In this document: positions 950 through 63,390 of the stretch, one piece after another | Position numbering within the stretch: the first letter of the stretch is position 1 | Layout: each line of letters starts with the position of its first letter | DNA from: Membranipora membranacea | Taxonomy: Eukaryota > Bryozoa > Gymnolaemata > Cheilostomatida > Membraniporidae | Length of the DNA: 64,000 nt | Assembly (NCBI GenBank): GCA_914767715.1 | Contig: OU612067.1 | Coordinates: forward strand, 6,510,001-6,574,000 | Direction of reading: 5' to 3' | Translations under genes and position numbers: made by a program | The notes under the pieces: generated by a model | The model's database searches: none | Seen by the model: the letters and a program-made list of their open reading frames with translations, nothing else | What the model was told of the DNA's origin: nothing

Positions 950-1889
950 ATGCGTCGGTTTACACTGTATACTATTCTCTTCATTTTGGGATTTCTGCGC
1001 ACTGGAATATCAACGGTTGGCAGCGATGAAGTAGTAGAATCAGATAACGCAACAGTAGTGACAAAGGACTCAGAGAACAACCTGGTGGAGTCATTTATCG
1101 AGAAGGAAGGGGAGGGTGCAGGTCTGTTTGCCTCACCAGGTCCCTCACTTAGCCTCGTACCGCAACTCTGGGAGTCGGTGAAAGTTTCACAATATCAGGT
1201 CAAGCTACAGTTTGTTGTTACCAACTTCAGTAAATGGCTGATGACACATGTGTTTTCTAAAATGATCAAGGGACAGCTGAGTCAGCTACCAAACTTCATC
1301 GGACCAGGCCTGAAGGAGTACGCGTTAGCATGGCAAGATGAATTCTGGTCGTCAAGTGAAGGTCTTCTTACTTGGGCTATAAACGGTACTTCTTTGATGT
1401 ATTGTATGGTGTATTGGCGTGTTGAAGATAGCGATTGGCATCGTCGTTGTCCGAATAGGTTCGGCATTGGCTGCTTTAGCAGCGCAGCACAAGCGCTGAT
1501 TGTGTCGAGTAAGATTGTTGAAGAATCGAAAGGTGAAGCTAAAAATTCTGCTGTAAACGACAATCTGGATTGGACTTATTCTCATAGCGATTCCATTTCA
1601 ATTTTCCATTGTGCGGAGGAGTTTTGCATTCAAGGACTCTTCCCACCAGGTGTGCAATCTATAATCCGCATTTCACTTCTACCTCTGTACGCGGAAGATT
1701 GGAAAGCTTCTGACAAGATTGATCAGCAACACATTGAGCTTCTTAAAAACTCTACACACACCGAAATCGACCAGCAGCTTGTGTGTGACACAAATTATCG
1801 AGTTGTAAAAATCGTTCTGCTGACCTGTGCTCTATTAATGGTGAAGATCATAGTTCTTGTATGCTTTCTATCTCGTCGAATGTGCCCAG
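950..1889 (+). CDS. Variable-type first exon 1a: signal peptide, actinoporin-like(?) ectodomain, one TM helix
   Basis: This 313-codon exon opens with ATG at 950 and a hydrophobic signal peptide. An acidic linker, a folded ectodomain of about 200 residues and a hydrophobic helix near residues 285-307 follow, then a short basic/cysteine tail. Potential N-glycosylation sites are NFS, NGT and NST. The core around residues 85-185 has beta-strand-like blocks (VVTNFSKW, then LLTWAING, then YWRV and FGIGCF). Their order loosely recalls the actinoporin-like beta-sandwich family; that is a remote, by-eye resemblance only, and pore formation should not be assumed because the protein is membrane-anchored. 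The open frame runs to a TAG at 1892, but the stop lies inside a strong donor, CCCAG|GTTAGT, at 1889/1890. I therefore read it as an exon that splices in phase 1 to the shared tail exons from 5055. Its near-twin at 3398 has the same donor. If unspliced, it would be a 314-aa single-exon protein. Confidence 0.7.
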
Positions 1890-1930
1890 GTTAGTGAAGT
1901 GTAGTTTAAAACTCAATTTATCGTTGTAAC

Positions 1931-2035
1931 ATCATTGTTAGCCCGTTTTGTTTCAGTTTTTATATAGGACATGCTACACTATGATAGTGTAGCATGTCCT
2001 ACATGAAAACCGAAACAAAACCGGCTAACCATGAT
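1931..2035. repeat. Hairpin MITE in the intron after exon 1a
   Basis: Two arms of about 50 bp form a near-perfect palindrome. The centre reads ggacatgctacacta/tgatagtgtagcatgtcc, and the outer parts read gttagcccgttttgtttc and gaaacaaaaccggctaac. It begins about 40 bp after the exon 1a donor. No coding capacity. Confidence 0.7.
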
Positions 2036-3189
2036 ACATAAGCGATTATATTGGTTTGTTTCACTGTTTGATTACACTCCATTCACCTCAATATTAAAAT
2101 ATTTTCGGGCAAATAAAAATATTCTGTTAAAACTGGAAAATCCGGGTGTTTGACAAAATCTGCTCAATGCCTAACATTGTAACGCAGCAAGAATTACATG
2201 TATGTATTACATTGTAAATTGCGGAACGAAACTAAAAAAAGCTCCATCCACTAAAATGTGTGGAATTATAATAACCACATTTCATATGAACTTCGGAATA
2301 ATCAAGATTGATTTAACTTGTCACCTCCTGGTTTGTCACCGATCTGCCACAAAAAGGACTCGTACTTGGAAATCCCGATCATCAGTCTTTGTTCTAACCG
2401 CTATGTCAGCAAGCTCTCACTAGATTGAACAAATCAGCACAAACTAGATATCTATGCTCAGCTCGATCCGATCGGCGTTCCCAATCCCATGGTGCTACCT
2501 CATGGAGCAAAGTGAATGGCTTTGGGGAGACACCAGGTTGAATCCTCGTGCCTTCTAGGCAGCACCTGACTGTTCCGAATTCTATGGAGCTCTAATGATA
2601 CGATTGTCATAATAGTTCCTTGACATACAAATTTACAGATTACGGCCAATGTTGTTGATGTCAGTCCACAAGAAAGAATGTGTTGCAACCAGTTACCCTA
2701 ACAAACCTGTTCACTATCGCAATTCCATTTTATGAAGCGGTGTGGACCTGGCAACCACACTTTTATTCTTTGAACCAGTTTTAACTATTGGTGTTTTCCT
2801 AGGTCCCTGTTTGGATTGTTAGGAGTTGAAGAGTTCTCTACCAATGAAGACATATCTTCAGTAGGGGTTGTACTTCGACTAGATTTGGAAGTTGTCGGCT
2901 CACAACCAAGTAAATAATTTCTAATTGTGCTTATGACTATTTTTACTGTGTCACGCCAATGTGTGCGCAAGGCGTATGTAGTGAAGTAGTGACATAATGA
3001 TCGATAAGTAATGCGCAGACACACATATGGAGGCAAGATCGGAGGCTACCAGTAATACTCGATTATACTGAAACAATACAATCACATAATACTGTGTTTT
3101 GTTATCAATTAACTAACTATTGTTAGCTGTGCAGGTTGTTATTTGGTTTTGATTAATAGTGTTTTAGTTTAAGTGCTCAAACAGTTTAA

Positions 3190-3256
3190 GTGCTGGTAGA
3201 GGCATTTCATTCTCAACCACTGAAAGTGGTTGATAATGAAATGCCTCTACCAGCAT
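3190..3256. repeat. Hairpin MITE, family 'GGTAGAGGCATTTCATT', copy 1
   Basis: Arms of 31 bp (tgctggtagaggcatttcat at the outer end) separated by 4-5 bases. It lies about 140 bp upstream of the exon 1b start codon. A longer copy of the same family is at 62287-62394. Confidence 0.75.
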
Positions 3257-3397
3257 CTTGCATTCTCTATAATAGTGTTTTTGAGTACTATTGAGGTACT
3301 ATTGGATACCTAAAGTGAGTTGTGTTTGAGAAAGATGATTGCAGCGATAGGATGGTTATAACTTGACGTCCTTTCCCCTTTGGAGTGATAAAGGACA

Positions 3398-6300
3398 ATG
3401 GATTGGCTTTCGCTCAGCATCCTCTTGTTTTTGGGTGTGCTGACTACAGTAAAATCGAAAACTAGCGGCAGCGATACAGATAACACAACAGTCACAGTGA
3501 CAACAGGCTCAAAGAACACTTTGATAGAGAAATTTATTGAACAAGAAAAAGGATCGACAGACTTGTTTGTTAGACCAGGAGCCTCTCTCAGTCTTGTATC
3601 ACTGTTCTGGGAATCTATCGGTAGATCGCAGTACGAGAGTAAGGTGCAGCTTGTAGTAACTAACTTTAGTAAATGGCCCATGATTCAGGTCTTCTCCAAA
3701 ATCATTAAAGGACAGCTGAACCAGCTTCCAAACCTCATTGGACCGGGTTTGAAAGAGTACGCACTAGCATGGCAAGATGAATTTTGGTCGTCGAGTGAGG
3801 GACTTATTACTTGGGCTATAAACGGTACTTCTTTAAAGTACTGCATGGTGTATTGGCGAGTGGAAAACAGTGAAAGGCATCGTCGCTGTCGCAATAGGTT
3901 TGGCATCGGATGCTTCATCAGCAGATCCAAAGCGATGGATGTATCGCTTAAAATTGCTGAAGAATCGGAAAGCGATGCTCAAAATTCCGCAGTGGCCGAT
4001 AATTTGGACTGGACATACTCCCACAAGGATTCCATATCGCTTGTCCATTGTACAGAGGAGTTTTGTATTCAAGGTCTCTTCTCTCCAAATGTACAATCAC
4101 TGATGCATATTTCACTTACACCTCTTCTTGCAAAAGACTGGAAAGCTTCCAACGGAATTAAGCAGTATGAAATTGAGCTTCTCAAAAACTCTACACACAT
4201 CGAAATTAACCAGCAATTTGGGTGTGACACTAATTACCGAGTTTTGAAGATCATTGTGCTGGCCTGTGCTCTATTGATGGTGAAGATCATACTTCTAGTA
4301 TGCTATCTATCCCGATGCCTGTGCCCAGGTTAGTGAGAGGTCTCAAACAGCTATGTGAGGCTACGATAAGTATACTTTCAGTGCAGTAGGTACTGTCAGC
4401 GCTACTGATTATGCCCCTGTTACGTCTTTAAGAACAACCAGTGACATCTTACAGCAATGTTGCCCACATCCTTGCCATCTGCTCTCTGTTGTTCATCTTA
4501 TTTAATTTGCTTCATAAGTTAAAGTACTCTCCATTTTTGTCCCATCACCCGATTAGTCTGATAAAGAGAAATCTTTACACTATTCTATTTTTTTCACGGA
4601 CATCCTACTCTTAGATGCACCCGCTTTGATTTCATCACCATTAAGATTACCAGGTTGACTTCCTTACAATTCACATAGTTAATGACACTTTTGTAATGTC
4701 AACGCCAGTATCCTGATATAATTCAAAATCAAACAATCATCAAAGCAAACGCAAGTTATTTAGAATATTTTCTAGGTGAGACTGAACTTTCTATAAGACG
4801 TATTATCTGTGTTAAGTTCTTGGTTGAAAAATATGAATGATCATACTAACAATTTCTCATCTGCCGATCAATTATGCCAAAGCATTTTAACCTGAGTGGA
4901 ACCCCAACAATTTGAACAGGGGTCACAAGCAAACTAGAACCAGTATAGCTGCATCGATGTAGTGTCAGCGATATAACTATTATGTATTGATATTATATGA
5001 TATGCGATTGTTACATGAATTTACAATTTGTTTAATTCCTGCTGGTTGTTACAGGGAAAGCGTCTCAGTTCACGGTGAAATATCTCAGATGTTACACAAA
5101 GTATAACTGGATGTATAAGTGTCTTCTCCAGGTTAGTGGTATATCTCTCAAGGTTTTATGGAGCAGCCCGCCATATTCGGTCAGCTTGATAAACATCAGA
5201 GGTGGCCCTGAAAATTTGGTTTAAGTGAATCAGTCCATAACCATGGGAATCTTGGGATTGCCCCTCCGCCCATATTCCTCTCAGCATACCTCCCCCCCTA
5301 CTCTTCTGTTTTACAATATTCAACATAGGAAGTGGATTTTTGGTTTTCCTAGCACAAATTTCAAAATGTTTGAGTTAAAAGTTTTGCCAATTGAGCCAGT
5401 ATTGTAACCAAATCATTCATTGATATACATGAACCATAGGTCTGTGCCCGTTCATCAAATTAAAATGCCGACAAGATGCCGACAAAAATCCAAAGTTTCC
5501 TTAATATTAAATGAATGTTTTGCAAAGCATGTATATGTATGAGTATCCCACAATGCAATTCTCAAAATTTTTTATTGAGACCAGGGCAATGAGAGTATTC
5601 GCAAGAGCGACTTTGGTTTAATGAGAATTCCAGGTTAAACATAATATATTGTTGGAGTGTTGCCAGTATGAATTTTTAAATGATCCATAACTGAGAATGT
5701 TATGCCTGCAAGTGGGACTTTTGACATCAAAAAGTGCCGATTTTGCAACAGCGTCAGGCTATTCTCACTTTCAGATTTTATCCAAATATTGATTTTAATT
5801 TTAATCATCAATAGTGCTTTCGCTTAGTTCTTAAATTAGGGAGTATATAGACTGTTATGACTGTTGCTATACTTGTAGTCCCTACTCAATTATCAATTTG
5901 ATTCTATTCCCTTGAAAGTACTCTTGAGCTAATAAGTACACACACATGTACGCCTTCAACAAAATATCAAAATATGGCAAGTGTCAAACTTTATTTATTT
6001 AATCTACGACACAGCGTTTCACACTCTTCACTGTTGCTCAAATATTCTTCATCGTCTCACACTTATTACGATTCCGATGTCTAGGCACACTTTTGGCCAG
6101 GTTTTCTTCATACAAAATAAATAGGAACATTGGTGGGGAGAGTACTCATGGATAATGGGGGGGGGGGGGGGGGGGCTTTAAAGAAGTTAAATCTTAACAT
6201 CAAAACTAACTGTTTGGATATAGAGAAAAATTTAAAGTGCAGCTAATTTTACGTTTCTAGTTCGTTTGCACTGTTTAACTGGATCAAAGCAATAATTACT

Positions 6301-8640
6301 ACCAATTACTAGCAATTATTAGAATATGAGGCATTGATAAAAGTGAAATATTTATAATATCATAATTAGTAGCCATTTATTCAATTAGTTGTCATTTAAT
6401 CATTGAATGTCCGCACTACATTGACTGTTGGAGTTGGCTTAACACGTTATAAGAGAAGATAACTACACCCACAGTCTTGCTATTCCTTGAGTTGCACCGT
6501 GGAGTTTCGGACACAGTTTGGGTTTATGTCCCAAACTCCCTAGGTGCACTGAACTGAACCTAAACCATAACTAAATGCAGTAACACTGCAATAAAACCCG
6601 ATCACCCATTTATGCTCAGTTACGTCACAAGGAATCATGCTGGTGTATTGTAAATGGTCTTCATTCAAATCAGGGACATCATTACGAATTAAGTGCTTAC
6701 TGTATGTGAGATATTGCAAATTCACTAGATCCCCAATCATTATTGAGAATTGTTTTGGCTCGAACTTCGGCAAGAACCCAACTATTCTCATGTAGTTTAA
6801 CACATATTGCGCATATTGACACATTATGTGCAGGGCACAGTAGGAGTGAACTTGTTTTAAGTTTATGCATATTGAGTAGAAAACTTTAACTGAAAGCAAA
6901 CACATCTTTGCTCTACACCGAACCAGATATGGTAGGAGGTCCCACCCTCCCTGACTGAATATTATATAAAGTTTCACCCCATTATTTGCCAGCTCTATCT
7001 CCTGCTGTGAAACCAGCTGTACCGAACTCAGGGAATTCTAGCGCTTATCTCACCCTAAGTCACTGTTTAATGTGTTACAGAATTATGAGATTACGGTGTT
7101 AGCGAGGAATGATGAAGGAGAGTTTGTAGAGAGAGAAGAAAACGGAATAGCCTATTATAAGGTAATAGTTACTTATAGTCACATTAAGATCATAATGTAC
7201 TCCTTGTATATCGCACAAATGTAATGCAAACGATTCTATAAATTCATCTGAGCCAAATATTTTTGTAGGACCATTTCACCGCAGTTCGAGAAGTTAAATG
7301 CATAGGTGAGTGAAATATTTGTGGGAGGAAAAGTTCATCATTACATAGTTACTTGAAATAATTAAATCTTTTGCTAGCTATTATTTTGTCAAAAGCTTGC
7401 TTTTTCAAAACTCCCTAGTGAAAATTTGTTACTAGCTAAAATTAAGACAAAGTATCTTAACAAAACCCAAACCAATTATTACTTCTCAAGGATATGAATC
7501 AACACTAACGATAGATATATATATATCAAGCTCAGTTACCTTGCTGTTGTCTTCTTGACCACTTAGACATGGTTTGTTTGGTTTTGATCTAACATCATTA
7601 TTTTCATGTTTACAGAAAGTTTTGTACCATGAATGAGTAGTTCATGCGGGCAAAAACCTGTGGCCGCATGAATTAGGGTAATGAATTAGTCTTTAAAATT
7701 GATATACTTACTCACTTGCTCATACTATATTGATTATAAGTACAATTTTACCTGCATATTATTTCGAATGACAGGTATATTGATGCATAAATATATTTTA
7801 CTTGCAGATCAAAGCTCTGCCCTATGCTCTGTATCTAAATAAGTCATGTGATGAGGAGTTTGGAGCTGGAGAGCTGCTGATTGGTCAGAAAGGGCCTGTT
7901 ATCAGAACTGGTCGGCTCAGTCAGCAGGAATATTTCTTTAAACTGTTCACTCCAGAGCAACTCCAACAGGTAAACCTCGGCATCTTATTATTATATCCAC
8001 TGACATGCCATTTCCAACGAACGAAAACAGAAAGTTGCCAAATGCTTGTACAGGGTTAGATATGTTCCCCTAGACGATCAATAGGGCCTACCAACCGGGG
8101 TTTTAATCTGATGAAATGGGGTTATGAAAACTTAGCTTCAATGCTTGGTAGAATATTTGTGATGTTTCATCATAGAGGCATTAGAATACCAGATATGGCA
8201 TTTGGAAAACATGAAGAAAGGGAAAGGCACATCATAACGAGTAAATTCATTCAAAAAAGTTTCCTCTTGCACTCAAATCCCTAGGAGCCAGTGAGCTGTA
8301 TGTTCACCTCACAATATTTGAAAAGTAGTTTTCCTCATTATCTATCATTGAGATTTAGTGAAAATGAAACTTTACAGTTTCATTTTCACTATATGTATTT
8401 TCATCTAGCCTGGTATTGGCTCTCTCCCACTTACCAGCTACTCAGAGCCGTCAACACGTTGGCTACACGTCTAATGTTACATTCTATTACTTTACCAAGG
8501 CGGAGATGAATGGTACAGATAAGAGTGAGGGTGCCAGTGATCCTCTCGTTAAGTCTCAGCTGACGATGAGCTCTTCTAGTCAGACAACAAACTCTGTGGG
8601 TGCTGACTCAGTCGAGCTCACTGTTCTAAATACCAACTGA
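3398..8640 (+). CDS. Membrane-anchored protein: ectodomain exon 1b spliced to cytoplasmic-tail exons
   Basis: Proposed exons are 3398-4328, 5055-5131, 7081-7161, 7808-7969 and 8446-8640: 1,446 nt, 481 aa, all junction phases agreeing (1,0,0,0). Exon 1b encodes a signal peptide, an ectodomain closely similar to exon 1a and a TM helix near residues 282-304. The tail exons encode about 170 residues, beginning KASQFTVKYLRCYTK and ending in a Ser/Thr-rich stretch before TGA at 8638-8640. Exons 5055-5131 and 7081-7161 are each open only in the frame dictated by the previous exon, which is good evidence for splicing. The last acceptor could also be at 8408, but only 8446 fits the phase. I do not recognise the tail. 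The ectodomain is at best distantly actinoporin-like. Exon 1a could be an alternative start to the same tail. A possible AATAAA lies at 8961-8966. Confidence 0.65.
4329..7080 (+). other. Introns and exon 5055-5131 between ectodomain and tail
   Basis: Apart from exon 5055-5131 this is non-coding. It contains an uninterrupted run of 19 G at 6157-6175, a likely length-unstable or assembly-sensitive site. An antisense open frame at 6540-6977 has no recognisable domain and crosses a motif (ggtcccaccctccctga) that recurs at about 50489, so it is probably repeat-derived. Confidence 0.4.
7269..7305 (+). other. Candidate 37-nt cassette exon in the tail region
   Basis: The segment is bounded by a good acceptor (TTTTTGTAG) and a strong donor (G|GTGAGTG). 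It is open in the frame continuing from exon 7081-7161, but its length is not a multiple of three. Including it shifts exon 7808-7969 into a frame that meets TAA after about 12 codons; skipping it keeps the frame. It may be a regulated 'poison' cassette or a chance pair of splice-like sites. Confidence 0.35.
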
Positions 8641-9161
8641 AAAGTATAGGTGATTTTTACCTGCTTGAGACTGTCTCAGACAACTGCCACAGAACAACTG
8701 CGTAAAACTCAAATGCTGTTTCACTGCAGCCATCTATAGAACCTGCTATCATCAGAATGAAATTGTATAATGGAACCGGCAATATAGCTAGAATGAGGGC
8801 TCTTACATTTTCTGATTGCTCACATTTATATAGAAATACATACTGAACTGTGTAATACAGTCATGTAAATTTTTATTTTATTTACAAATGAAAAATGCTC
8901 ACTCAGTTTAAAAAAAGCTTGAAACCAGTTTATTATATGCAATGAAACGGATTTTGCTTTAATAAAATATAGTTCATCAATCAAAAGCACAACATTACCA
9001 TTATTATTATGCTATGTACTGAAAAGCTTTTTAAAATGAAGGAGCCTTTCTCCAAATACAATTATACATAATGTTTGGGTACATAACATTTGTTCAGAGA
9101 TACAATACAACAAGCTGTAATAAATACACTATTATATGGATACTCAACTTGTAATGTAACA
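8641..9161. other. Convergent intergenic/3' region
   Basis: Only 521 bp separate the plus-strand stop at 8640 from the minus-strand stop at 9162. A plus-strand AATAAA is at 8961-8966, and a minus-strand AATAAA (tttatt on plus) is at about 8872-8877. The two 3' UTRs may therefore overlap tail to tail. No other feature is visible. Confidence 0.45.
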
Positions 9162-12100
9162 TTAATCATCACAATCAATAAGGTCAGCTTTGGCACAAGT
9201 CTTTTGTGATTGGAGTGAAATTTCCTCCACAAAAAAATGGAATGAGGAAGAACGGCCAGTTGTTGTATATCCCATGTCATTCTCCTGGTCACAGTTTCCC
9301 ACGTTGTATGCGATTGTCACCGAACCGGCAGGAACGGGGCTGTTACATATTCCTGAAACTAAGCAGAGAGGAGATTGTAGTAGGTTACTGTAAAATTAGC
9401 CCTGATCAAGGAAGCCCAAAAAAAATCATAAACACTTCAAAGTCTAAAACATAGCAATAAGGACTTAGTTTTCATATTTTTAATGTCCATAATATACTAC
9501 CGTGTGGAATTAAGGCGTCTTATAGACTTATATGTTACATATACCTGAAACTAAACACCAAAAAGTTTGTCTTAGGTTACTGTAAAGTTAACCCTGATCA
9601 AGGTAATGAGTCGCAGAGCTGCCATATTTACCAGGCTAAATATTACATCATCAATATCTGAAAACATGATCTAAAATTACATCGGGATCCTGAATAATTA
9701 GTCCGATAGAATTTCAGGTCCTTCTTCAACTGGCCACATTGAAAACCTTCACAGCCATTTTCATTTTCACAGATGACATTCTTCTTTTGCAAATTTTTAT
9801 ATAAGCCGTAAAAGGAAGCAGGGGAGACCTTTTGCTGTAAAAACAACTTGGTTTCAGCTAACCAAGTTTGCTGACTCTACGCTGGGTAACACTTCAGCTT
9901 AGGGGAGGTTCCAAGACATTGCTGTAATGATGATAGAGCACAGGCTAAATATTGACAGGAACAGGAAACTGCTCTGTGGTATTTTATTTTAGCTGAGTTT
10001 GAGGACCTGATGGATAAAATGTTTCACAAGAATTCTGGCTGAATAATCATCTGAATTAGATTTTGTCTTTTTCCCTATGCAGAAGGTGCAATCTGCTATT
10101 AATCAATGAGAAGTTGTTTGAAACCCTGGTTGCCCTTTAATGCAAAGTGCAACATGACTTTTCGCATAACTTTGGTAACAAACAGTAAACACACACATAC
10201 AATGATATTTTACCTTGCATTGGATAATTTAGGTTGACATGTTTATCGAAGTATGCTATCCCTTCTACCGAACATTCAGCTCCGTTAACTGTAAAATACC
10301 TGAAATATAATAAGATTGATTAGTTGATTGCACGATGGGCAGGAGAGTCAGCTTATAGTGTGCTCGTTTCAATGCAGTATTAAATTATGAGGCCCAATGC
10401 CAGAAATACATAAAGATTTGGTATTACTTGATTAATCAATTACATAAGATTGAGAGCTATGTCAAACCTGGCGCTGCGCTCGGATAGAAGGAAATCGTCA
10501 TCCAACATGGCCAGTAACGCTACGCTCTGAAGATTATTAATACGATTATTAAGGTTTTACTGGATTGGCCATCCTAGCTTTGTCACGCGGCCATGTTTTG
10601 TGTTTTTTTTTGGAGTGGCCTTGTATTTCTTGCTATAATATGAGGAGTAGACTTTTGGATTTTTCGCTCTAATCTGCACAAACTTGAGCTTTGACTTTTT
10701 TTATCCATAGGCAAGGCATAGGTCATTTATCATATTCCAAATAAACATAAGTAAGTTGAATTGCACTAAATTCTTGCAGTAATTATGTGAATAGCGAGAA
10801 GTACAAGACCACTCCCAAAATCAAAAAGCCGAAAACCGTTGCCAAGTCTATGGCCATACAGCCTGTCTAGCCCTTCGGATAGGCTTCAGTGATTGATAGT
10901 GAGGAGTTGGTACAGTTATGTTACTGATTCTCATGATAATCCCAGACGTAAACAAAGACTGACTTACCATCGTGAGCATGGGTTAGTGTTACTGTTGGGC
11001 ATGGTGCTCTTATGTGTCCCAGATGATGTCAGCCTTAAAACTGTGAGCTCATTGTTCTTAGTGTAGTCAAAGGATATGATCTCACCTACTCGAATACTTA
11101 CTCCAGGTTGGCCGTAGCCATGGAACCTGTACACATTTTGATATGCATTCTTCAGGATCCTTCCATCTGAAGTGATTACTGTAAAAATAAACAAGGTACC
11201 TCTTCACCGTCATTCAAACAACTCTTTATAATACGAAATAGAAATTTTTCTTCATGACTGTGTTATTATGTTTATTGGAACATCGATATTCATAGTTAGA
11301 CAGGGATGGCTGATAAGTCAATGGCTATTTCCATGATTTTGTAATGGATTTAAAAGGTTTTAGCAGGTAACAAATTAATAATAACAATAATAATTTCTAT
11401 GAATCTCATATTATCCCTCCCATATAATACCCATGCATAATACTGGCTTTCATACTCATACATACATGTACACTGCAATGAATAATTTGTTTACCTGCAT
11501 CTAATCTTTGGTTAGACCGAATCTCCTCAATGTGCATACGTGCGCCATCATAGAATCCATTCCATGTTTCAGGATCACTCGCGGTACTGCTCGCTACACA
11601 TCCCTTAAGTTTAACTATTATCGTATATTCTCCAGCTGGAAGGTTCTCACAGACTGCCTCCACTAGTAAACAGAAATGAGGCTTGATTACTTGAGTGTTT
11701 GTAAAATTGACTGGATGGTAAATCAATCAACCTTTGCTCCGGTCTCACAAAACTCTAAACAGGAGATTCATCCGTAAGGTAAAAACTCAATGGAAGCGAA
11801 TTTTCGCTCACTCAAATATTATTCAATATTTTGGCGTGATTGATCTTTCAGCAGATGAGCGTAAGATCAATATTTTGGGATGCTTACATGTGTAGGTCTC
11901 ATACATATTCTGGGTATTTAGTTTGCAGTCCTCATAGTCAGAGTCACAGAATATTGACATATCACCTTCGGGGGAGCATTCTACATCTTCATCAACAAAT
12001 AGCGCCCTGAAAAATACAATTTTTCCTTTCTTATAATGTAACATATTATAGGTGAAAAAAATATGGGGCGCTTCACGCATTTGTAACCGAAAGTGACGAT

Positions 12101-15100
12101 CAACGCCACTGTATATGTTGTTTGGCAGACAGGGTACTTGCTATAGTATTAGATGTTGTTAATATGGTGCAGAATTGACAAACAAATGAACACCATCACC
12201 AGGAAATTGTTAGAATTTCCACAAAAGACGACATAGGTTAGTGATAGGGAGGTGGGAGGGAAATTGACAGACTTAGTTTCTTTCAAGACCGGCGTGGTGA
12301 CCGGATGTCAGATTGAAAGAAAGAATATGTGAGTAACATAAAAGCCTATCATTGGCTGTGAACAGTAGTTCTAAGAAAGCCTATCATTGGCTGTGAACAG
12401 TAGTTCTAAGTTTTCCTTACCAATAAGTTTTCCTTAGTTGGTTGAGGGAGGGCAACTTTTTATTCAGTTGACCTTGGATTATTTGTCATGTCTTGGGACT
12501 GATTGCCAAGACAAGGAGAGTGTTATAAGGGCAGAAAAAAATCTTTTTTTTACCAAAAACTTTATATTCATGATGGATTTCATGACAACTTTGCTTTGAG
12601 ACAAGACTTCCTTTTTCATAGCAGTGCCACCTTTAAAGCGAATGCTGCGAAGGCAGATTTTCTCCTACCCTGAGGCAACCAGAAGTAACAAAATAGACTA
12701 GAAATGCTGTGATCGCAAATGCTACACAACTCTACAAGAGTGGACATCAGACATTTGTTTTGACCTGGTTAAGTGATCAATCAATAATCAATAATCAATA
12801 GTGCGGGGCTGAGGCCCTGGTCATCATCCAGAAAGGGCGGCTCCTGATCTTATTTATCACCAACCTTTCCTTGCCATAGCTGTATTTTTATAAAATTGGT
12901 AAGACAGGAGAATATCTTGGAGGGTAGGAACCATTGCCAATATAGGTGGCCAAAAGTCCTCATGTCGGGTCTTGGTCAAAGCCCTCCCTTTAAACTGTTT
13001 TAGGGTATGTAGACTGCAAACGGATATCCCAACAACATAGCTGATTATTCAAATAAATATTTTGGCAACTTAATTAAGCTTTCTATTGGAGGCAGTGCTT
13101 CTGATATTGATACACATATTATATATATATATATTATGTTGATTGACCAGAAATTCTGCAGATATATCTGCAAAGCCTGTAGTGTAAAATTGGGACATCA
13201 ATGATTATCATGATAATTTGAATACATACAAGTATAATTATAAAACAAATAAAAACGAATGAAAATGATTATGACAAATAGTCGTAGATTTATATGAAGA
13301 CATAACACCATCCTACCCTATAGATGATGAAATCACCAGGTGGGAAGGTAATACTGATTTTCAGCAGTTCACGGTTCAATTTTTTCCCCGAATTAAAAAG
13401 ACTTGCACCCACAAAAAGCTGTAACATTTTTTCAGATGATAGGGTTTTTAAGTCACTTATGCCAAAGGGTTATTTGAGTAACATAACCTCACCAGGTAAC
13501 ACAATAGCGCTTCTCCTCTGTCATGGCTATCTTCACAGCAGCCTGATATTTAACTCTTAAACCAGTGTCATTGGCTAGTTTCCTATAAGTGTTGGATGTC
13601 TGAAAAATTTCAAAACGATAAAGTTGTGTACAGGAAGTCACATATCATGGTCTTTCCCAAAATTGAGCATTTTCTTCTTACTGGATTTATTATTTATAAT
13701 GACTCGATGAGCGAACATCAGAAGAAGAAAGGCTATATCTTTTATGCTGTTGCAAAGGGCAACACCACAGGAATAATCAAAAACTGGTTAAAATGTTACG
13801 CCGCAGTAAACAAGGTGAGTGGGGCGACTTATAAGGGATTTCGGTCCCTTGAGGAAGCAGAACAATTTTTAAGACGTGCTGGAGTACAATGTACATGGGC
13901 AGACTTTGACCAGTCTTATCTGGATTCCCTATGCAAAGATAGCAGTTCTGCTGATTCAGTCTCCCGGAGCCGTACGCCCCTCTCTGATAGAGGGGTAAGT
14001 AGAATGGAATGTAATAATAGAATGTCTAGCACGTCGCTAGACGCTGAAAACAATCAGTGTAAAAACTGCATCACGCTAGCTTCCCGTGTGAGATCTTTGT
14101 CTTCAGAGATAGAATCTTTGAGAGATAAGATTGAAAAGGTAGAGTGTAATAATATGGCGTCCTCCAAACCAATGGATGAGTCTGTTGGGAAGCCGCTCAA
14201 CATCCAAATAGAAAAGCTCAATGCTGATGTACAAAGCCTAATGGAAGCATTCAGAGAGCTGTCTGCTAAAGTGTCTGCAAAACCTTTAGCATCTGATTAA
14301 GTCAAAAGAAACATTCCAGGGGCGCTGAATAGTAATCCAGGTGGTATTACATCAACGCCTGTTCAGAAGAAAAAAATATCTAACCAAGTCAGTAAAACGC
14401 CAGTCTTTGATTGGAAGAAGTGTTTTGTCGTTGAGAGCAGAAATGCCAGCCTCAACAGAGATGTTATTAGGATCGGTATTTGTCAGAAATATTGATCGAC
14501 TGAAATAAAGCTCATCAATAAATACGAACTACATGGAGAGCGAGCTGATGGAATCAAGAGTAGGTTTATTGTACAAATGGACGACGACAGGATAAGGAAA
14601 CTAATAGTAGAAAATTGGCCTTAAAGTCTACTTGGAGGTTCTTTAGCTAGAGACACCATTCAAAGACCTATGGACACAGTAATAGTTCCAAATGTTCCTC
14701 TGGATTTTCAGGAAGAGGATATTGTAGCAGATATCAATATCGAATATAGAGCTATCTGTGTCAAAAGATTGAAGAACAAAGAAGGTCAATCTCTGAGGGC
14801 TGTTGTCATACAATTTCAGTTTGAAGCAGAGCGGGATCAGACGATGGCAAGTGGTAAACTGAAATTTCCATCTATGTACAACATAGTACTTCCGATGAAA
14901 TTACCAACCAGTAGGAGAAAACGACGCGAAGGTTCCACCACCAATCATGTCTAATACAGATAAGCGGATTCATACAACAAACTTTCAGTCACATGTTCAA
15001 AATGAGGTTAGACCCAAACTTAATTTTTCTGTTGCACATTTGAATGTTAGAGGTGTGACTTCAAAGTTAGATCAAATCAAAGATCTTTTAGCCAACTATA

Positions 15101-18100
15101 ATTTTTCAATTTTAGGTCTGAGTGAGACTTTTCTCGATTCTAAACTAAGCAGCTTTTACCATATTGATTCATATGAGATGGTTAGGGTAGATAGGAGTGG
15201 AAGGTCTGGTGGTGGTATTTTATGCTACCTCAAATCTAGTTTAAAGTTTGAGGTTTTGTCTCATTTTGATCATATTATGTTAGAGGAGTCGATCACTGTA
15301 AGGATAGACTTCAGGTCTTCATGTTCATTGCTCATATGTTTTCTGTATCGCCCTCCAGGTTCACGAAGCTCTTCGAATGACCAACTAAAATTATACTTAG
15401 AAGACTGCACCCAGTATTGTAAGGAAATCATGATACTTGGTGATTTCAACATGAACTTGATGGACAGCAAAGTGGAAAAACGCTGGATGCAAAATTTTTC
15501 AAAATTCTCATTTAGTCAATTGGTCACTGAGCCTACGTGTGTCGCTGAAAATTCTTCGACTCCAATTGATCATATCTATTCTAACAGAGAATCTAACATG
15601 AAACATGTTTCTGTTATTAAAACGTCAATCGGTGATCACTATTTGACATTTGCTGTACGAAAGATCGGAGTACACAAGCAGATTGGAAAGACCCGTCTTT
15701 GTTTTTATGATTATTCTCACTTTACACCTGAAAGCATATCTCAGGTATTCTCCAATATAAACTGGAATCCGATCATAGTGTCCAGAAATTGGGATGCTAT
15801 GGTCTCTGAGTTTACCAATACTTTCAAATACAATATACACAAACTGGTAAAACCAAAAACACGATTTGTGAAATCTAAAATTATGTCACCTTGGTTAGAT
15901 GAAGCCACATGAAGATTCGAGATAATCTCAAAGACAAGGCGAAATGGAAAACTTATAAAAGAGAGAGAAATTTGGTTACAAATGATTAAAAGGAAGAAAA
16001 AGAGTCATTTTGAGAATCTAGTAAAAAACTCCAAATCTCAGAATACTAAACCTCTTTGGGAGGCTTTGAACTTGAAATCCAAAAATCCTCATTCTGTTTG
16101 CTCATCAGATATTACAGCTGATGTTATGAACGAACATTTTTCTACTGTAGCCTCAAAACTATGTTCTAAATTTGTCAAAGATAGGTTTCCTTTCCAGGTG
16201 AACTCAAATCAATATGCCATTAAAGGCAATTTGTTATCGTTTGAAAGTTTTACTCCAGCATCAATTTGCTTATATTATCTTAAAAAAATTCCATCAAATA
16301 AATATACTGGCCCGGACGGAATTTCTGTCCAAATGCTGAAGAAAACATTGCCTTATATAGTGGATATTTTGACTGACATGTTCAATAGGATTTTGTCTGT
16401 AGGCTGTTTCCCATCCGATTGGAAATTGGTTAGGATTACACCCATTTTCAAACAAGGTGACAAGAGCAATCCTTAAAATTATAGATCTATCTCCATTCTT
16501 CCTATATTATCGAAAGTATTTGAGAAACATGTTAACGTCTGTTTGACGAATTTCCTCACAAAAAACAAAGCCATTCATAACTCGCAGGCAGGCTTCGCAC
16601 CGGGCATTCGTGTACTAATTCAGTTCATAAAATCTTATCAGATGTTACTGATAAAAAGCAGAAGCAGATAACCATTGCAACTTTTTTGGACTTCTGCAAG
16701 GCATTCAACTGCGTTGATCACCAGATTTTGTATCAAAAACTCAAGAATTTCAAGATAGAAGGCTCATCTTTACAAATTCTCAAATCATTTTTAGTGGATA
16801 GGAGACAGTTTGTTGGCTTTTCAAATCAAGTATCCAAGGTTTTGCCTATAACAGTTGGAGTTCCGCAAGGCTCAATACTTGCTCCAACTCTGTTTCTGAT
16901 GTTCATCAATGGTCTGTTGACATTGTCTTTGTCATCATCAGCTCACGCTTATGCTGACGATACCACATTCACCTGCTCACATTCAGATTCCCTTCAACTA
17001 GGACGATTGTGCTTCTTGGATTTGGAAAAGATACATAAATGGTGTGTTTTGAATAGGATGACTATTAATACCGAGAAGTCACACTTCCTTTTGTTCGGGA
17101 AACCAAAAAATAAGATCTGTCTTAAAGTAGGTGAAGACATTTTGTCTCAGTCAAATAATACTAAGCTTTAGGGTTTTTACCTAAGTGACTCGATGACATG
17201 AAACGAACATGTTGAAAAGATAGTAGCTAAGTTACAAAGTAATATAAATCTTTTTAAACTATGTAGAAGTTATATCAGTACATTTGCTGCAAGGCAGTTC
17301 TATTTCCAGTTTACCCATAGCCATCTCATATCTGGGATACAAACTTATCACAGAAATATCTGATAGATAGCATATTTTTAAAGCAAAAGTCTGCCATGAG
17401 ACTTATTGCTAATGTTCACCATATACCAAATTATCTTACTGATACAAGAACACTGTGTAAAACATTTAAGATTTTACCACTTCCAAGTTTGCTTGTGTAT
17501 TTTAATTCAATATATGGGTATCAAATATTTAATAGTTCTGTTCCTGAGTTTGTGAGTAATTTTTTCGTAAGTGTTCATGGCAGATATCCACGGAGAGATA
17601 TTTTTAAGCTTAATCTATGTAATGACATCAAGATTAATACGTCCATCGCGAAATCGTACAATGATTTACCAGTTTATTTTCGTTCAATGACAGGACTATC
17701 CTGTTTTAAACGCAGTCTATTTAAATATCTCATCTCACTTATATAGTTTTCTTCTTTTTTTTCTCTCTCTTTTCTGTTTTGGCACTAAATGTAAAACATT
17801 TTGCCCAAAATGATTTAGACTGTCAAATAAAGTATTAAAAAAGAATTAAAAAAAAAAGTCATTACAAAAGCAGATAAGGATAATTCCATCCGTTTCATAC
17901 AAACAAACTTGCCTCAGGCTGAACCAAGTGAATTTGGTAAACAATTGTAATAAATTGTTTTTAAATTTTAGTGAGGTGAGACAGGTGGAAAAAAATTTAA
18001 AGTGTATCTTACGCACCTAATACCTGCTAATTGGGCATAACTTTTTCATCAACCACATTATTTTCTGCAAACTGTGAGTGATCATGTTTTAATACTTACA

Positions 18101-28500: not shown

Positions 28501-31500
28501 AATGGTGCAGACCCTGAATCAAAACTCATTTTTATCCTAACATAAGCAGTTTTCAAGATCACTCTCTTTCAACAGGTTTTTCCTATGTGACGTGGGTTAA
28601 AAGTACCAAACTGGAGAGAGGACAACTCTGAATTGAGGCATAAATAAGAGCTCAGAAAACTGTCTATTTATTCTTCAAAGAATTGTTCGCTCAAAATTTG
28701 AATCAAACTGATCACGACAAGCTACTAAATCTATTGTAATTTTCAACTCAAAATCCGATAAAAATTGAACGAATACTCAACAAAGAACCTGGTATATAAG
28801 CTGCAAACCAGTGATAACATCAATGTTACTACACCTTCTAATGTTGTCACGTTGCTCACAATTAAATGCCTCTATATCGGAACCATACTTTTCTTCTTAT
28901 AAGATCCAAATTTATGAAATTTCACTCGCTGTCACTTCGAACCCATACATACATTTACACTTAGGTAAATGAATTAGTCACCTGCATCTAGTCTTTGATT
29001 AGACCGGATCTCTTCGATATGCATACGTAATCCATCATACCATCCAGACGATGTTTCAGGATTATCATCAGCAGTTGTTGCTATAGTGCACTGCACAACT
29101 TTAATTGTTATATTATATTCTCCAGCAGTCAGGTTCTCGCAGACTGCCTCCACTATTAAATAGACAATTGAGCTTGATTACAGGTATTTAGTGTGTATTT
29201 TTTATCGATCTGAATTGCTAATCGAATGGAAAAAATGTCAGAGCGAGGATCTCACAAATATCTCACAAACAGACTCAGAATTTAGGCTCATACATATTGA
29301 CTGAGCCTCCTGATTGTTGATGATATCTCTTTCTAATGACAGATATTATTTTTCTCGCATTGTAATATGTTTAAAGTTTTGGCTGTCGAATTTTAATAAA
29401 GCACTCTTCAGGTTAAACTATATCCCCAAAATTGTTTGATTCAGCATTTTAAATTTCAAATCTTTTTAAATTTTATGCAATTTTTTTTAGTTAAATTTTC
29501 AAAATGTTTAAATCTAAAATAGAGATCAAAGGAACAAAAGATCAATCTTTTGAGAGGCGTACATGTGTGGGTCTGGTACATGTTACGAGCATGGTCCACA
29601 CAGTCTTCGTAGTCAGAGTCACAGTATATCACCGTATCACCAACAGGAGAGCATTCTACATCATCATCAACAAACATCGCCCTGAGACATGCATACATAA
29701 TAATACATACATAGGTACATAATACTAACAGCTGTATTTTGAAAGCAGGATTACTTATCATTTTATATAAATAAAAAATATATGAATCAATAAAGTGTAT
29801 GATGTGAAGGCAGATTATCAACAATGACACACCTTGAGAGCACAATAATCAATGGCTCACAAAGTCGAAGATGATTGAAGACTGTGAAATTATGATTTTG
29901 GCCACAAATTCAATGAGGCTCTTGGTGTCCAGGCACACGATTTATCAGCTACAATCACATGTGAGTACTAGGAAACTTGTTAAAATATGCAACCTTGCTG
30001 GGGATAGTTACTGTGAGACAAAACTGTATCCATGTATTTACTGTGTGAACACTCAATAACACTCAAAAAATCACGGTGTTACTTGTTTTCACATCAAAAT
30101 TTGATATTGAAATATCCTAAACAGGAAAAAGCTAATTTAAGTGCTCAAATGTTGCCCGCTAGAGTACCTGAACTGAAAGGGTGCTTAGTAATTTTGTCTT
30201 TGTAGGAGCCTTTGAAATAAGGCTTACCCTACCATATTAAGAGAACAGTAAAACTATGACGCGGGGAGAGATGACTGTAAATTAAGCACTGATGTCTAGC
30301 AGCCCAACTTTTTAGTTTGGTCAATACCCTCAGCTTGACTGATCTATTCATCTACCCATTCAAGAACTTATAATTCAAGAACTGCATCTTACAGACCAGC
30401 ATCCCAGAAATGAGCATACAATCTGTTATATGGCATTTTTGATAGGTTTTTCAAGTTAGTTATGCAAAAGGATATTTATGGCAGACATGACCTCACCAAC
30501 GTGCACAGAAGCGCTCCTCCTCTTTAAAGAATAATCTCAAGGCAGCCTGAAACTTGACTCGTAATCCTGTGTCATTGGCTAGTTTCCTATAAGTATTGGA
30601 TGTCTAAAGATCCGAAAAAAAAAAGATTAATAGGGATGGAGAGGCATGAACAGAAAGTCTTAATTACAAGGAGACAGTTACTAATATATCCTGAAGTTGG
30701 AAATAAATGTTTGCTGTTCCTTCCTTCCTTGTAATACTTTCAACAGAGCAGTTTGGTTAAACGAAATAATAACTATAAAATCAAAATAAATTTATTAGCA
30801 CGTTTACCCAAATTTAGCTATGAACAAAGTGAGAAAAGCGATGACTGCATGATAACAGTTTATTTGTTGATCAATTTTATCTCAAATATGATATGTGTCA
30901 CAGTCTTAGAAAGCAGGGATAAGTAGGGATTATCCAATTGGTTATATTGGTTATTTTTTATTTCAGTTTCCTAAATTCTAGGAAACCATCTTCTAGAACC
31001 AATAAGATGTGATCTTTCAGAATCTGCGATCAGATTGGTTAAAAAAATGAACAGAAGCCATTTTTATTATTGGCTAGATTGATTGACTGAATGATAGTTT
31101 GACTGATAAATTGAAAACTTTGAAGCTCGTTTTCTCAGATAGACCATATGGCACATTTTGCCAAAGGGCCCTTCACCTTTTGGCTCTAATTTCAAATCAT
31201 CAATTTGAGCAAGGAATTCAACTTATACTTTGTTAGAAAGCTCACAAAACTCTGTACAAGATGGAAGAAGAATCTCAATCTTTTTGGTTTCCTACTGATC
31301 CCTGCTTCCTGAGACTGCGACACATATATTGTTGAGGAACAATAAAGTATTGGTAGCTTATATTTACTCGACCCTATTATAAGCTTTCACCAAGGACACT
31401 CCTCACCAAGGACACTCCTTGCTCTCACTCTAGTTAGCAAAAGCATGTGATCACCCTGCGTTAAAATTAGCTTCACTGAACTGTAGCTAATATTGAATCA

Positions 31501-47406: not shown

Positions 47407-50400
47407 GTGACAGAGTAGCTATGGAGCCTGGTGTATCGTGTAGGAGATGTGATCATTGTAAATCAGGTCGGTACAATCTCTGTCCTGACGTTGTGTTCTA
47501 CGCTACGCCACCTGTACACGGATCTCTGACCAGATACTGTACACAGGCAGCGGACTTCTGCTTCAAGTAGGTCCCTTATGATATGATATTGATCAGATCT
47601 TTACATGTTGAATATGGTCAGCGTACCACACTTTAATATTAGGTCAGCCCTGATGCTGAAATAACAGTTATACTTTTATATAGCCTTTTGAACAAAACAA
47701 CAGTTGACTCAGGGCCTCAGCAACACAATTAAATGGATTATTAAGCCATAGCAAAGTTGATATATAAACGTTAACACTGCTTTTGATTAGTCAAAGGTGC
47801 CTCAAATCACAGCTTGACCACACTACCCTCTGGCCAAATCCACAACACCTCAATGACTGACTCGAGCGGAAATCTGAGGTGATGCTCCGTCATATTACAA
47901 CCACCACCAGTGTGCGTATCTGATCACCAGATTTTTATTTTCCAAATACATATGGGGTATTTGTTGTGGAGAGCTATGAACAGGACCTGTCTGTGGCAGC
48001 TTGTGATTATATGATGTACTGGTCTGGTTTATAGCTCTCCACAACAATAGTTTGGTAAAAATTACTTTTAATTGATTCGAACCAGTTGCCGCACCAGAGA
48101 CAGGAAGTTTGGGACTCTCTGTCCAGAGGCTCTGCTTGAGTTTTGGTTGGGCTACAATTCAGAGTTATGCCCTCCCCGACACTTAGGTTCAGAGAGAGCA
48201 TAAGTCCTCAAACATGTTATGGTTTAGAAATCGTTCGAAGGAGAACCCTGAATCATAGAAGTGGCACTCACAATATTGGGCCAAACTGTAACCACTCTCA
48301 TGGTCGTATCACATTTTGGTTCAAGTTTTAATGAGGTCATCTAGATTTGATTGCAGTGGATATCTAAGCCAAATCATCTTGATACAGGAGGTTTGGGGCA
48401 ATGACAAATACATAAATACAACTAATACCTTCATCTTATAAGTATTTTGTTGCTGCTAACTTTTAAGCTCCATAGTTGTTCTACAATGGTTGCTTGATGA
48501 TTGATGTATCCGTCACTCATACCTCAGTCTCATGTTCTCTTTGATAGATTACCAGACCACGTAACATTTGTGGAAGATGCACTACTAGAGCCTCTCAGTG
48601 TAGGAGTACAAGCGTGTAACAGTGGAGGAGTAAGTCTAGGTAAACGTGTACTGGTATGTGGAGCTGGGCCGATAGGACTAGTATATATCATGACTGCTAA
48701 GGCTTAGGGAGCCATAGAACTTTGTGTTACAGGTCAGTCAGTGTTGTTTTATGGTATGATGTGATTTGATGCTTTGCTTTTTGGTTCACTTTTGCCACAT
48801 TTCGTCTATCTGAGTATTAGTGACAGTTTAGTTTGGCTTGTCAAGGGGCTGACTAAACGTACACCAGTACCAATTTTCGTAAGCTGACGAATAAGTTAAT
48901 GTCATGTTCTGATGTTGAGCAGTTGTTTAATAGCCTTAAATTTCACAATTTTGAGTGTGTACCAAAAGGCCAGCTTTTCCTCCTACAAACACTAGGGTAT
49001 TATGATGGGTCTAGTCTCCTGATATCCAGTGCTTTAGTTTGGGAAATGGTTTCATATGCAACATAACGTTCTCTTATATAACTTCTACTCACCACGAGAC
49101 GAGCCATCTATCTGAGCCTGTAGGTGGGTGTGTAGGTGGGTGTGTGGGTGGTGTCTGGACCTGGTTCATCTTTATTTCAGTAGCTTTAGATAATACCTGA
49201 CCAGCCTAATAATAACAATTGTTGATTGTGTATTTTTGATTTGTGTTGTGCCTCATATTGAATCATGTATGTATCATCATAAATACCATTTGTAATCTGC
49301 TCTTATGTAAAACATGATCTGATTTGCGTTGATCGGTTAAGTCTGAAACAAAGTTCATATATAATATAATTTCAGACATCAGCCAGTCGCGGTTAGACTT
49401 TGCTAAGACAGTTGGAGCTGATCACACTATCCTGGCTGATACTAGAGATGGTCTGGAGATGTCTAAGGCAGCATTTGGAGATAACATGCCTGAAGTTACT
49501 ATAGAGTGTAGTGGAGCTGAGAGCGCTACTCAACTAGCTATAGATGTAAGTCAGAAGGCAACTTATTTATTTGTTAACACAACACTGTTGTATGATTCTG
49601 CATACTGGCAGCATCAAAAGTGCTGTTTTGAGATTAAGAGAGTGAGAAAAAAAGATACCCAACGGTATAACCGTGAAGAACAGGACATTTTGGGGATACC
49701 TGCAGTATTGAGGAATACCCTAGGTCTAGGAGAAAAAATTTGTCATTTGGCATATGTCTGAAATAGCTTAATTTAGTGTAGATATAATTTACACACCATC
49801 CTATACCATATAGACTTGCACCTAGCTAAGATTTAGTGTTAGCTAACATTAAGTCACAAACTGACCAGCTAACCTAAACACTTGCCACCATTTACTCATT
49901 GAGGGTACTTTAAGAAGCACATATTAGATTAGCTTGTTAGATTGGTCTTTCAACATGTGAATTTTGCATAACAGTTTTCAGAATCACCTCATATTACAGC
50001 TCAATTCTCAGAATGACTTTCAGTATAATTGGATATTAGAATACTGTGGTCAATTGGATGCGATGAATTTCTTAAAGCTCAATTTAGTACAAAACATACA
50101 ATTATTTAGCTTTCGCTAATGCTTGCAGATTGCACCCTCTGTAAATCTTAGTTTATATGCTGTATTATTTATCATCACTTCTCTCTTGATTGACAGGCGA
50201 CTAGATCTAGAGGTGTTATTGTACTGGTAGGAATGGGTCCTGATTTGGTCAGAGTGCCTTTAGCACTCGCAGCTAGTCGTGAGTTGGATATACGCAGAGT
50301 GTTCAGATACTGCAATACGTGAGTTTTATGAATTATTAATTAACCACGACCAGTATAAGCCATTACCACCACTAATCACATTCAATAATGACAATGAATG

Positions 50401-61300: not shown

Positions 61301-63390
61301 ATGATCCGTCTGTAGGCTGTTTAGATGGAGCTAAGATGAGTCTGGGTGGGAGTTATCCTGACTTAGCAGTCACCGAGAGAACGGAGCTAGCTAAGTTTGG
61401 TCTTGTACTGATAATACTTATCCCAGTCGCTTTTGGGACAACACTGCCAATGTTACCAGATATACCAGTGAGTATAGACAAGTATAACTTTGTTGGTTTC
61501 ACGTTAGTATTTCCATATACAAACAATGTCAAATATTGGTTCAAACCCTGATGTGATCTCACACATGGGCCTTCTGATATCATGTGCGGATATTGAAAGG
61601 GTCAACTTCAATGTTGTGGGCTTGTTTTGAAGCTGATTAGCTGGAGAAACAGCTTTGACAACCCCAATCTTTATTTCATGGATGCTTTAAAGAAGAATAT
61701 AGGCTGTTGAGAAAAGGAAGTCCTCAATCTCTGAGGGTTCAACTGATGGAAAGTTAAATTTATCTTTCTCCATATCAATGACTGATGAATACGAAATCTA
61801 ACCCTTGATGATTTTGGTCAAAGTGTAGTAATTGCACCAATTGGGAGACAAATGGATGATAATGACTTGATACTAGCTAGAAGTAACCAGTTTGACCCAG
61901 AAGATATACCCAGTAATACTCTTGAAGATACTGCTGTATCATTCAAACCTATGGGATGACGAACTTATACATTTGTGATTGGTATTCCAGTAATCTGGTC
62001 TCGATAATAATACATGATTCATGATTTCAGGAATTCTCATCGGCAAACAAAACTATGAAGGAAGTGACAGAACTAGCTGAAAAAGATGTGTCATCTCTAG
62101 TAAGTATTATCACAGGGTACGGAAATGTTAGCTACTTGGATGAGTCATTTTGTCAATAACTATATAATTGGGGTCTTTTTTAAACATTCAAATAGAGGTC
62201 TGGACAAACACATAGCCGCTGTTTTTCAATGCCAAGATGGACAAGTTTTTTGAGAAATTTGGAACAAGGGGAAACAGCTAGTTTAAGCGCTCAGACGGTG
62301 GCGGGATGCTGTTAGAGGCATTTCATTATCAACTACTGGGGAAAGTGGTTGATAATGAAATGCCTCTACCAGCATCCCGCCACCGTCTGAGCGCCAAACA
62401 TGAATCTAAGTTTAATCATGTATCTCCCTCCCTGGCTCAGGTCCACCTTCCGACAATATACCAAAATATTTATTTTCCTTTGCAGGCGATATCAAGTTTA
62501 GCCAGTTATGTGATGAGCGGAGTTGCTATAATAGTCATACATAAAATCTGTACAAAGTTAGCAGAGAGTGGCAGAGCTCTCACATTATTACACAGACTAG
62601 TGGCTGGACATATCGCCATGATTATGTCTATTGTATCCGCTATGATTATACAAAAATATAACCCAAGTGAGTCTATAATGCGAGAAATACTAACTTACTC
62701 CATTCCATAACGTCATCTTTGATTGTTCTTAAGAAAAAAAAACCACCTCCAAATCAATCAATGGTATTCTCAGATACATTATTTGGGGAAAGATAATGAT
62801 CCATTTGGAGACAGGGCAATGTCACAACATTCAAAGATCACTCAGTACACAATGATATCAGAACTCCAAAACATTTGAGAGCTGCACTTCTGTGTCAAAT
62901 ACAGTGACAGCTGAAAATACATGAACATGTCCTCCAATCACAAAGTTTGATTGCACTAGGTAAACTTAATATAACATATAACCTACAGCATGGAAAACGC
63001 ATCATTTGGCTTCATAATACATGCCAAGTACATTCATAACATATTTCTTGCTGGTTATTTATAGATTACAACGTGGCTACTTCTATAGGACCGATGCTAT
63101 TGGTAGGACTGAGTAATGCATTTATATATACAGCAGGCTACGAGCTGACGCTAATATCAGCGCCACGATCTATGCAGGGTACAGCTATGGGAATGTTTTA
63201 TCTCATGGATGGTGTCGCTAACATAGCTAATATCCTAGTTATAAATTATACTAATTATAACAACAGTAAAGTGGGCTCACCAGATTATTACTTAGTTATG
63301 GGCGTTGGGGGCGTGGCCTCGATGCTGATAGCCTGTGTTCTACTAGTCCTAGCTGAGAGAAAATACAGTCTAGGTACCAATCGTTTATGA
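58378..63390 (+). CDS. POT/SLC15-like proton-coupled transporter relative, 12 TM, 574 aa
   Basis: Eight exons: 58378-58658, 59281-59635, 59911-60151, 60411-60504, 61290-61467, 62031-62099, 62486-62666, 63065-63390. They total 1,725 nt with all phases matching. The start is ATG at 58378, followed by a polar N-terminus (MGNQSSSTTRRRPSRAQ). About twelve hydrophobic helices follow. LPALGGDQIPARHGVRVF after helix 4 matches the position of the family GADQ/R-FF motif, and YTAGYELTLISAPRSMQGTA after helix 10 matches the G-E-aP-m(r/q)G signature. A soluble loop of about 55 residues lies between helices 6 and 7, as in the MFS fold. The ExxER motif of helix 1, needed for proton coupling in classical peptide transporters, is not visible. 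Substrate (peptide, amino acid or other) therefore cannot be named. It could be another divergent MFS family. A polyA signal is at 63537-63542. Confidence 0.75.
61037..61122. repeat. Imperfect hairpin in a transporter intron
   Basis: gagtgcaagttgtaggtgat with following attacattatca faces tgacaatgtaatgacacaaa-cttgcactt. A small MITE-like palindrome between exons 4 and 5. Confidence 0.6.
61800..61970 (+). other. Unexplained open stretch in a transporter intron
   Basis: A frame of about 45 codons (VVIAPIGRQMDDNDLILARS, then an acidic stretch, ending in TGA at 61959-61961) looks protein-like but has no clear splice borders. Including it would break the transporter frame. Possibly a retroelement scrap. 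Confidence 0.25.
62287..62394. repeat. Hairpin MITE, family 'GGTAGAGGCATTTCATT', copy 2
   Basis: Arms of 51 bp (62287-62337 and 62344-62394) are almost exact complements; ends gcgctcagacggtggcggga / tcccgccaccgtctgagcgc. The centre half matches copy 1 at 3190-3256. It lies about 90 bp before transporter exon 7. Confidence 0.85.

Follow-up and report, generated by a model that had tools for sequence, protein, structure and literature searches.

Our analysis of a 64-kb window (G000:C3:6510001-6574000, the whole stretch of DNA that was examined, from a genome of 339 Mb in 18 contigs) points, with somewhat better than even confidence, to one locus in which two alternative first exons share a single tail, the tail having been gained before the first exon was duplicated. 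Each first exon would encode the front of a type I membrane protein, comprising a signal peptide, an actinoporin-like ectodomain, and a transmembrane (TM) helix. Both fronts would be spliced at the same phase-1 junction to a shared, tyrosine-rich, presumably cytoplasmic tail of 170 residues, which may have a signalling role. Choice of promoter (or exon), with each first exon probably under a promoter of its own, would set which of the two ectodomains is placed on the tail. Historically, a tail-less single-exon member would have acquired tail exons and a donor, after which the first exon alone was duplicated. The features concerned are the following (window coordinates).

950-1889, forward strand: exon 1a, with signal peptide (by eye), actinoporin-like ectodomain, TM helix, and short, predicted cytoplasmic stub
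1889/1890, forward strand: exon 1a donor, phase 1, with an in-frame TAG at 1892-1894
2093-2117, forward strand: poly(A)-like signals ATTAAA (2093) and AATAAA (2112), 199 and 218 nt past the in-line stop of 1a
3398-4328, forward strand: exon 1b, a paralogue of 1a with the same layout
4328/4329, forward strand: exon 1b donor, with an in-frame TAG at 4331-4333
5055-5131, forward strand: tail exon 2, 77 nt, phase 1 to phase 0
7081-7161, forward strand: tail exon 3, 81 nt
7808-7969, forward strand: tail exon 4, 162 nt
8446-8640, forward strand: tail exon 5 (coding part), 195 nt, stop TGA
8961-8966, forward strand: AATAAA, about 320 nt past the tail stop

A sequence-only reading of this DNA had described 1a and 1b as paralogous exons that each carry a signal peptide, an ectodomain, and a TM helix, and that end with the same phase-1 donor just before a stop. 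All of this held on closer analysis. The exons measure 940 nt (1a) and 931 nt (1b), both are left in phase 1, and the encoded proteins are 70% identical. A hydropathy scan found one C-terminal TM segment in each, while the signal peptides were recognized by eye. Both exons end in CCCAG followed by GTTAGTGA, such that an in-frame TAG lies inside the donor, with a TGA after it. At the DNA level, the pair is 76% identical over 1041-1897 of 1a, and the likeness ends 8 nt into the intron. A DNA identity of only 76% led us to reject the idea that the two exons are haplotype or assembly duplicates. Both are under purifying selection on average, with dN of about 0.19 and dS of 0.85-1.06 over 309 aligned codons; differences at the three codon positions number 70, 40, and 126, third positions thus accounting for 126 of 236. 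On this basis 1a does not look decayed.

The four tail exons were also part of the earlier reading, which placed them in frame from both 1b and 1a. Translation agreed, with the joined reading frame open to the TGA at 8640 from either first exon. The donor CAGGTTAGT is common to 1a, 1b, and tail exon 5055-5131. Splice sites were scored using generic consensus weights that were not trained on this genome. By these weights, and ranked against every GT of the window (3570), the donors at 1889, 4328, and 5131 reach percentile 99.5; the tail acceptors, all four ranked against its 3880 AGs, reach percentiles 93-98.

To these weights we added a codon model in an exon-chain search by dynamic programming, starting at the 1b donor. 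The codon model was trained on 3457 codons from 13 relatives, leaving out 1a, 1b, and the tail. At an exon penalty of 3, the search recovered exactly the four tail exons; at a penalty of 5, 7808-7969 was lost. The chain score was reached by none of 200 dinucleotide shuffles in a first run and by 6 of 2000 in a larger one, where the coding length was reached by 1 of 2000. It was also reached in 37 of 86 overlapping tiles (both strands) of the 30-kb left flank, a poor control, since retroelement-like and other ORFs lie in it and the noncoding background was drawn from it. The chain test therefore gives moderate, not strict, support for the tail. The per-codon score peaks in the true frame for three of the four tail exons. 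For 5055-5131, the true frame is the top of the three forward frames and second to one reverse frame.

Genome-wide, the tail was found once, the four places matched being the four exons themselves, and no second copy was found in the window or the 30 kb leftward of it. A search for an own tail of 1a within 1890-3397 returned nothing convincing. The best chain there (score 2.07) was matched by 315 of 1000 shuffles, in keeping with the earlier statement that no tail exons lie between the two first exons. Tyrosine is enriched in the tail (13 of 170 residues; P 0.003 against a background of 3.2%). Four signalling-motif patterns were no commoner in it than in shuffles. Scans of the window for tRNA genes and Rfam families gave no match.

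It is very unlikely that 1a and 1b each stand alone as single-exon genes and that the tail forms a gene of its own or a chance chain. Such a reading could draw on the looseness of the chain test and on the fact that no tail relative was found in Pfam (E<=1), PDB (E<=1), or the rest of the genome. Opposed to it are the exact phases, frames, and sites, the per-codon preference for the true frame, and an ATG-to-donor scan of 4334-5000 in which no other coding first exon turned up that could serve the tail. The tail could also follow a noncoding first exon and be translated from an ATG within 5055-5131.

Splicing of 1b to the tail is likely given these predicted sites and frames, and for 1a, too, the balance inclines towards splicing. 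The 1a and 1b donors are identical to position +8, beyond which only 13 of 50 positions agree. Of the fourfold sites in the two exons, 47 of 92 are identical. All five donor sites that are free of coding or stop constraint are identical, an outcome with a chance of 0.035, or of about 0.13 when worked out by hand from the local rate of 12/18 in the last 60 codons. As statistics, these figures are weak.

A different arrangement would have two adjacent genes, with 1a stand-alone and tail-less (ending at TAG 1892-1894, with poly(A) addition near 2112), 1b alone joined to the tail, and the 1a donor a relic. We regard this as possible, if on the doubtful side. A poly(A)-like signal lies 199 nt past the stop of 1a, which could be a separate tail-less gene, and the signals at 2093 and 2112 would serve its mRNA. 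After 1b, no such signal occurs for 1.1 kb, the first being at 5459 (chance about 0.11, by hand from background density). In 11 relatives, the first poly(A)-like signal falls 83-775 nt past the stop. A tail-less 1a would also be normal for the family, as 8 of 14 other places read through a hydrophobic helix to their own stop. However, poly(A)-like signals have a background of about 2 per kb per strand, which gives a chance of about 0.35 (by hand) of finding one within 220 nt, and the 1a donor has been kept letter for letter to +8 despite largely diverged neutral sites.

As the stop codon lies inside the donor, a switch between splicing and stopping is conceivable as well. An unspliced first exon would yield a tail-less anchored protein ending in CPG, and a spliced one the tailed form. 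Both 1a and 1b have the TAG within GTTAGT, and the tail-less relatives suggest that a short form would be viable. Nevertheless, an in-frame TAG is present in every GTTAGT donor of this phase, and 1b is without a nearby poly(A)-like signal; we consider such a switch decidedly unlikely. Least probable is splicing of 1a into 1b at the in-phase acceptor 3450 to give a tandem ectodomain protein. The best chain path from 1a to 9000 (score 30.25) did take this acceptor (site score 1.3), but the same path skips 3795-3992 of 1b, which suggests that the search was probably just gathering coding sequence. Moreover, 1a and 1b each have 11 AG sites with scores above 0, either internally or a short way upstream, and the second ectodomain would sit in the cytosol.

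The sequence-only reading had suggested that more variable exons may lie to the left, an expectation that found no support. No third first exon was found in the 30 kb leftward of the window, and a genome-wide DNA search at comparable similarity returned only 1a and 1b. The next-best protein match to the first exon is 36% identical and lies on another contig. With only two such exons found in a 339-Mb genome, receptor diversity at this locus would be two.

More distant relatives are mostly scattered over other contigs. With 1b as query, at least 22 genome places matched at E<=10 and at least 16 at E<=1e-3, two of the latter being 1a and 1b themselves; with L012 as query, there were at least 23 at E<=0.01. 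Apart from 1a and 1b, 14 places reach E<=1e-3, and in 8 of these (L012, L015, L016, L017, L019, L020, L021, and L023) a single open frame covers the ectodomain and a C-terminal hydrophobic helix and continues to its own stop. L015, L016, L021, and L023 extend roughly 30-40 residues past the helix (by eye). In L019 and L020, the frame opens only at mid-ectodomain, making upstream exons likely. In L013 and L018, the frame meets what looks by eye like a donor at the corresponding position, and L014, L022, L024, and L025 are partial or stop-bearing. Beyond this locus, no sequence resembling the tail was found in the genome.

The nearest relative, L012, ends at its own stop after the hydrophobic helix and lacks the donor that both 1a and 1b possess. 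Accordingly, the tail looks to have been gained before the first exon was duplicated, and it is likely that a tail-less gene first gained the tail and that its front exon alone was then duplicated. The presence of tail-less relatives in the same genome is what makes this likely order readable. Elsewhere, at G000:C4:22810537-22847337, four family members lie within 37 kb on one strand. Three of these (L033-L035) have hydrophobic tails resembling GPI signals (by eye), one of them after a threonine-rich stalk, while L031 is without such a tail.

By sequence comparison, the ectodomain is a remote relative of actinoporin-like proteins (PF06369), kin of the sea-anemone pore-formers. The relationship is carried by a chain of matches through paralogues in the genome. 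The first link joins 1b and L012 (E 1.8e-44), the second joins L012 to the loci of L027 (1.3e-5) and L028 (1.6e-5), and the third joins L027 to PF06369 (3.4e-8, with a bit score of 33.8 where the cut-off is 25). A profile comparison (hhalign) gave 98.4% and an E of 4.8e-15. Taken directly, 1b reaches L027 and L028 only at E 0.26 and 0.27, and L028 matches PF06369 at E 0.093, under the Pfam cut-off. Neither 1a nor 1b matched any Pfam family at E<=1, and thus neither PF06369 nor cadherin. The PF06369 model found four places over its cut-off in the genome, L027 among them, and neither 1a nor 1b. Together with the gene content encountered, the PF06369 relatives would suit an invertebrate animal.

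A family profile including L027 and L028 matched bryoporin in PDB at 1e-4, and the profile without L027, L028, L022, and L031 matched no solved structure; the bryoporin match is probably carried by L027 and L028. The 1b sequence alone gave one PDB match, at chance level. An AlphaFold model of 1b built from two sequences (1b and 1a) had a pLDDT of 37, too low for use of the fold. An amphipathic N-terminal helix was sought using a hydrophobicity scale. The best moment was 0.38 in both 1a and 1b, with 3% and 10% of shuffles as high, respectively. The top segment of 1b lies upstream of its helix-like segment, which scores 0.37. For L012, the moment was 0.51, with 0.4% of shuffles as high. By inspection, 1a and 1b lack P-[WYF]-D, described in a paper on sponge actinoporins as the motif of the lipid-binding region (PMC8778704). 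Being TM-anchored and without this motif, 1a and 1b are unlikely to be secreted toxins, and a role of the ectodomain in recognition or adhesion may be supposed. Viral contigs were also scanned, and of the 22 pattern matches obtained, none could be confirmed to be a relative.

Several other features were observed, in the window unless stated otherwise. Between 1a and 1b, at 1931-2035, is a foldback with 52-nt arms that are 90% complementary and 1 nt apart, perhaps a hairpin mobile element. A 21-bp stretch forms hairpin pairs at 3191-3255 and 62307-62374 and has a lone copy at 562-582 (five matches with up to 3 mismatches, against 0.04 expected) and is probably a dispersed foldback or SINE-like repeat. 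We had considered an element common to 1-949 and 3201-3397 as a promoter motif and rejected it, since it also occurs at 62307-62374 and resembles a dispersed repeat. On the minus strand of locus L005, at 4676-5185 in its own numbering, an ORF encodes a serine/glutamate-repeat protein in which SSESSV recurs and whose start resembles, by eye, a signal peptide. Remains of a non-LTR retroelement at 13554-17746 match an RNase H1 N-terminal domain (PF01693) and an endonuclease (PF03372), with reverse-transcriptase-like ORFs downstream (by eye). Two minus-strand ORFs at 11823-12140 and 29456-29848 have an acidic cysteine motif in common, read by eye as VDxDVECSPxGDxxIxCDSDYEDC. They gave no Pfam match above cut-off and are possibly paralogous secreted proteins. 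At 49333-49761 is a zinc-binding dehydrogenase exon (PF00107, 2.2e-8).

The findings suggest a family of membrane-anchored proteins with remote kinship to actinoporins. Should both junctions prove real, the locus would represent a two-exon, early-stage form of the protocadherin-type layout, in a family unrelated to cadherins by any match found. A bolder proposal would make it an invertebrate variable-exon receptor locus that arose independently of protocadherins from an actinoporin-like relative, with anchored recognition ectodomains, a signalling tail, and a switch between tail-less and tailed forms through the stop in the donor. Taken as a whole, this proposal is unlikely. A literature search found no title on such a family or locus, though it was too narrow to support a claim that none is published. 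The sponge actinoporin paper (PMC8778704) nowhere uses the words transmembrane, exon, or intron in its main text.

Compared with actinoporin-like proteins (PF06369), the ectodomain is remotely homologous through paralogues in the genome, but 1a and 1b differ in having a TM anchor and a putative tail, in lacking P-[WYF]-D, and in giving no direct PF06369 match. The arrangement of exons invites comparison with two known systems. In protocadherin alpha and gamma, the constant exons are joined to variable exons that each encode the ectodomain, the TM segment, and a short tail; the beta genes are single-exon and without constant exons (PMC4978886). The present locus resembles the former in having a whole ectodomain, TM helix, and short cytoplasmic part per first exon and shared downstream exons, and its tail-less relatives parallel the beta genes. 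In contrast, it has no cadherin repeats (no Pfam family at E<=1), two variable exons instead of tens, and relatives that lie mostly on other contigs. The clustered variable-exon layout proposed by the sequence-only reading stands as regards first exons with ectodomain and TM helix upstream of one tail; no large cluster of such exons and no cadherin domain was found. UGT1 likewise has tandem first exons and common downstream exons; the study describing it sequenced nine first exons, each preceded by a specific promoter (PMC3325998). UGT1 differs in encoding enzymes and in those nine first exons, compared with two here. In sum, tandem paralogous first exons of the same phase lie upstream of common exons that occur once, with none between the first exons, and there are two such first exons and no large array. 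With its two variable exons, the locus would rank as a small gene with alternative first exons and not as a diversity cluster, and it belongs to neither the protocadherin nor the UGT1 family.
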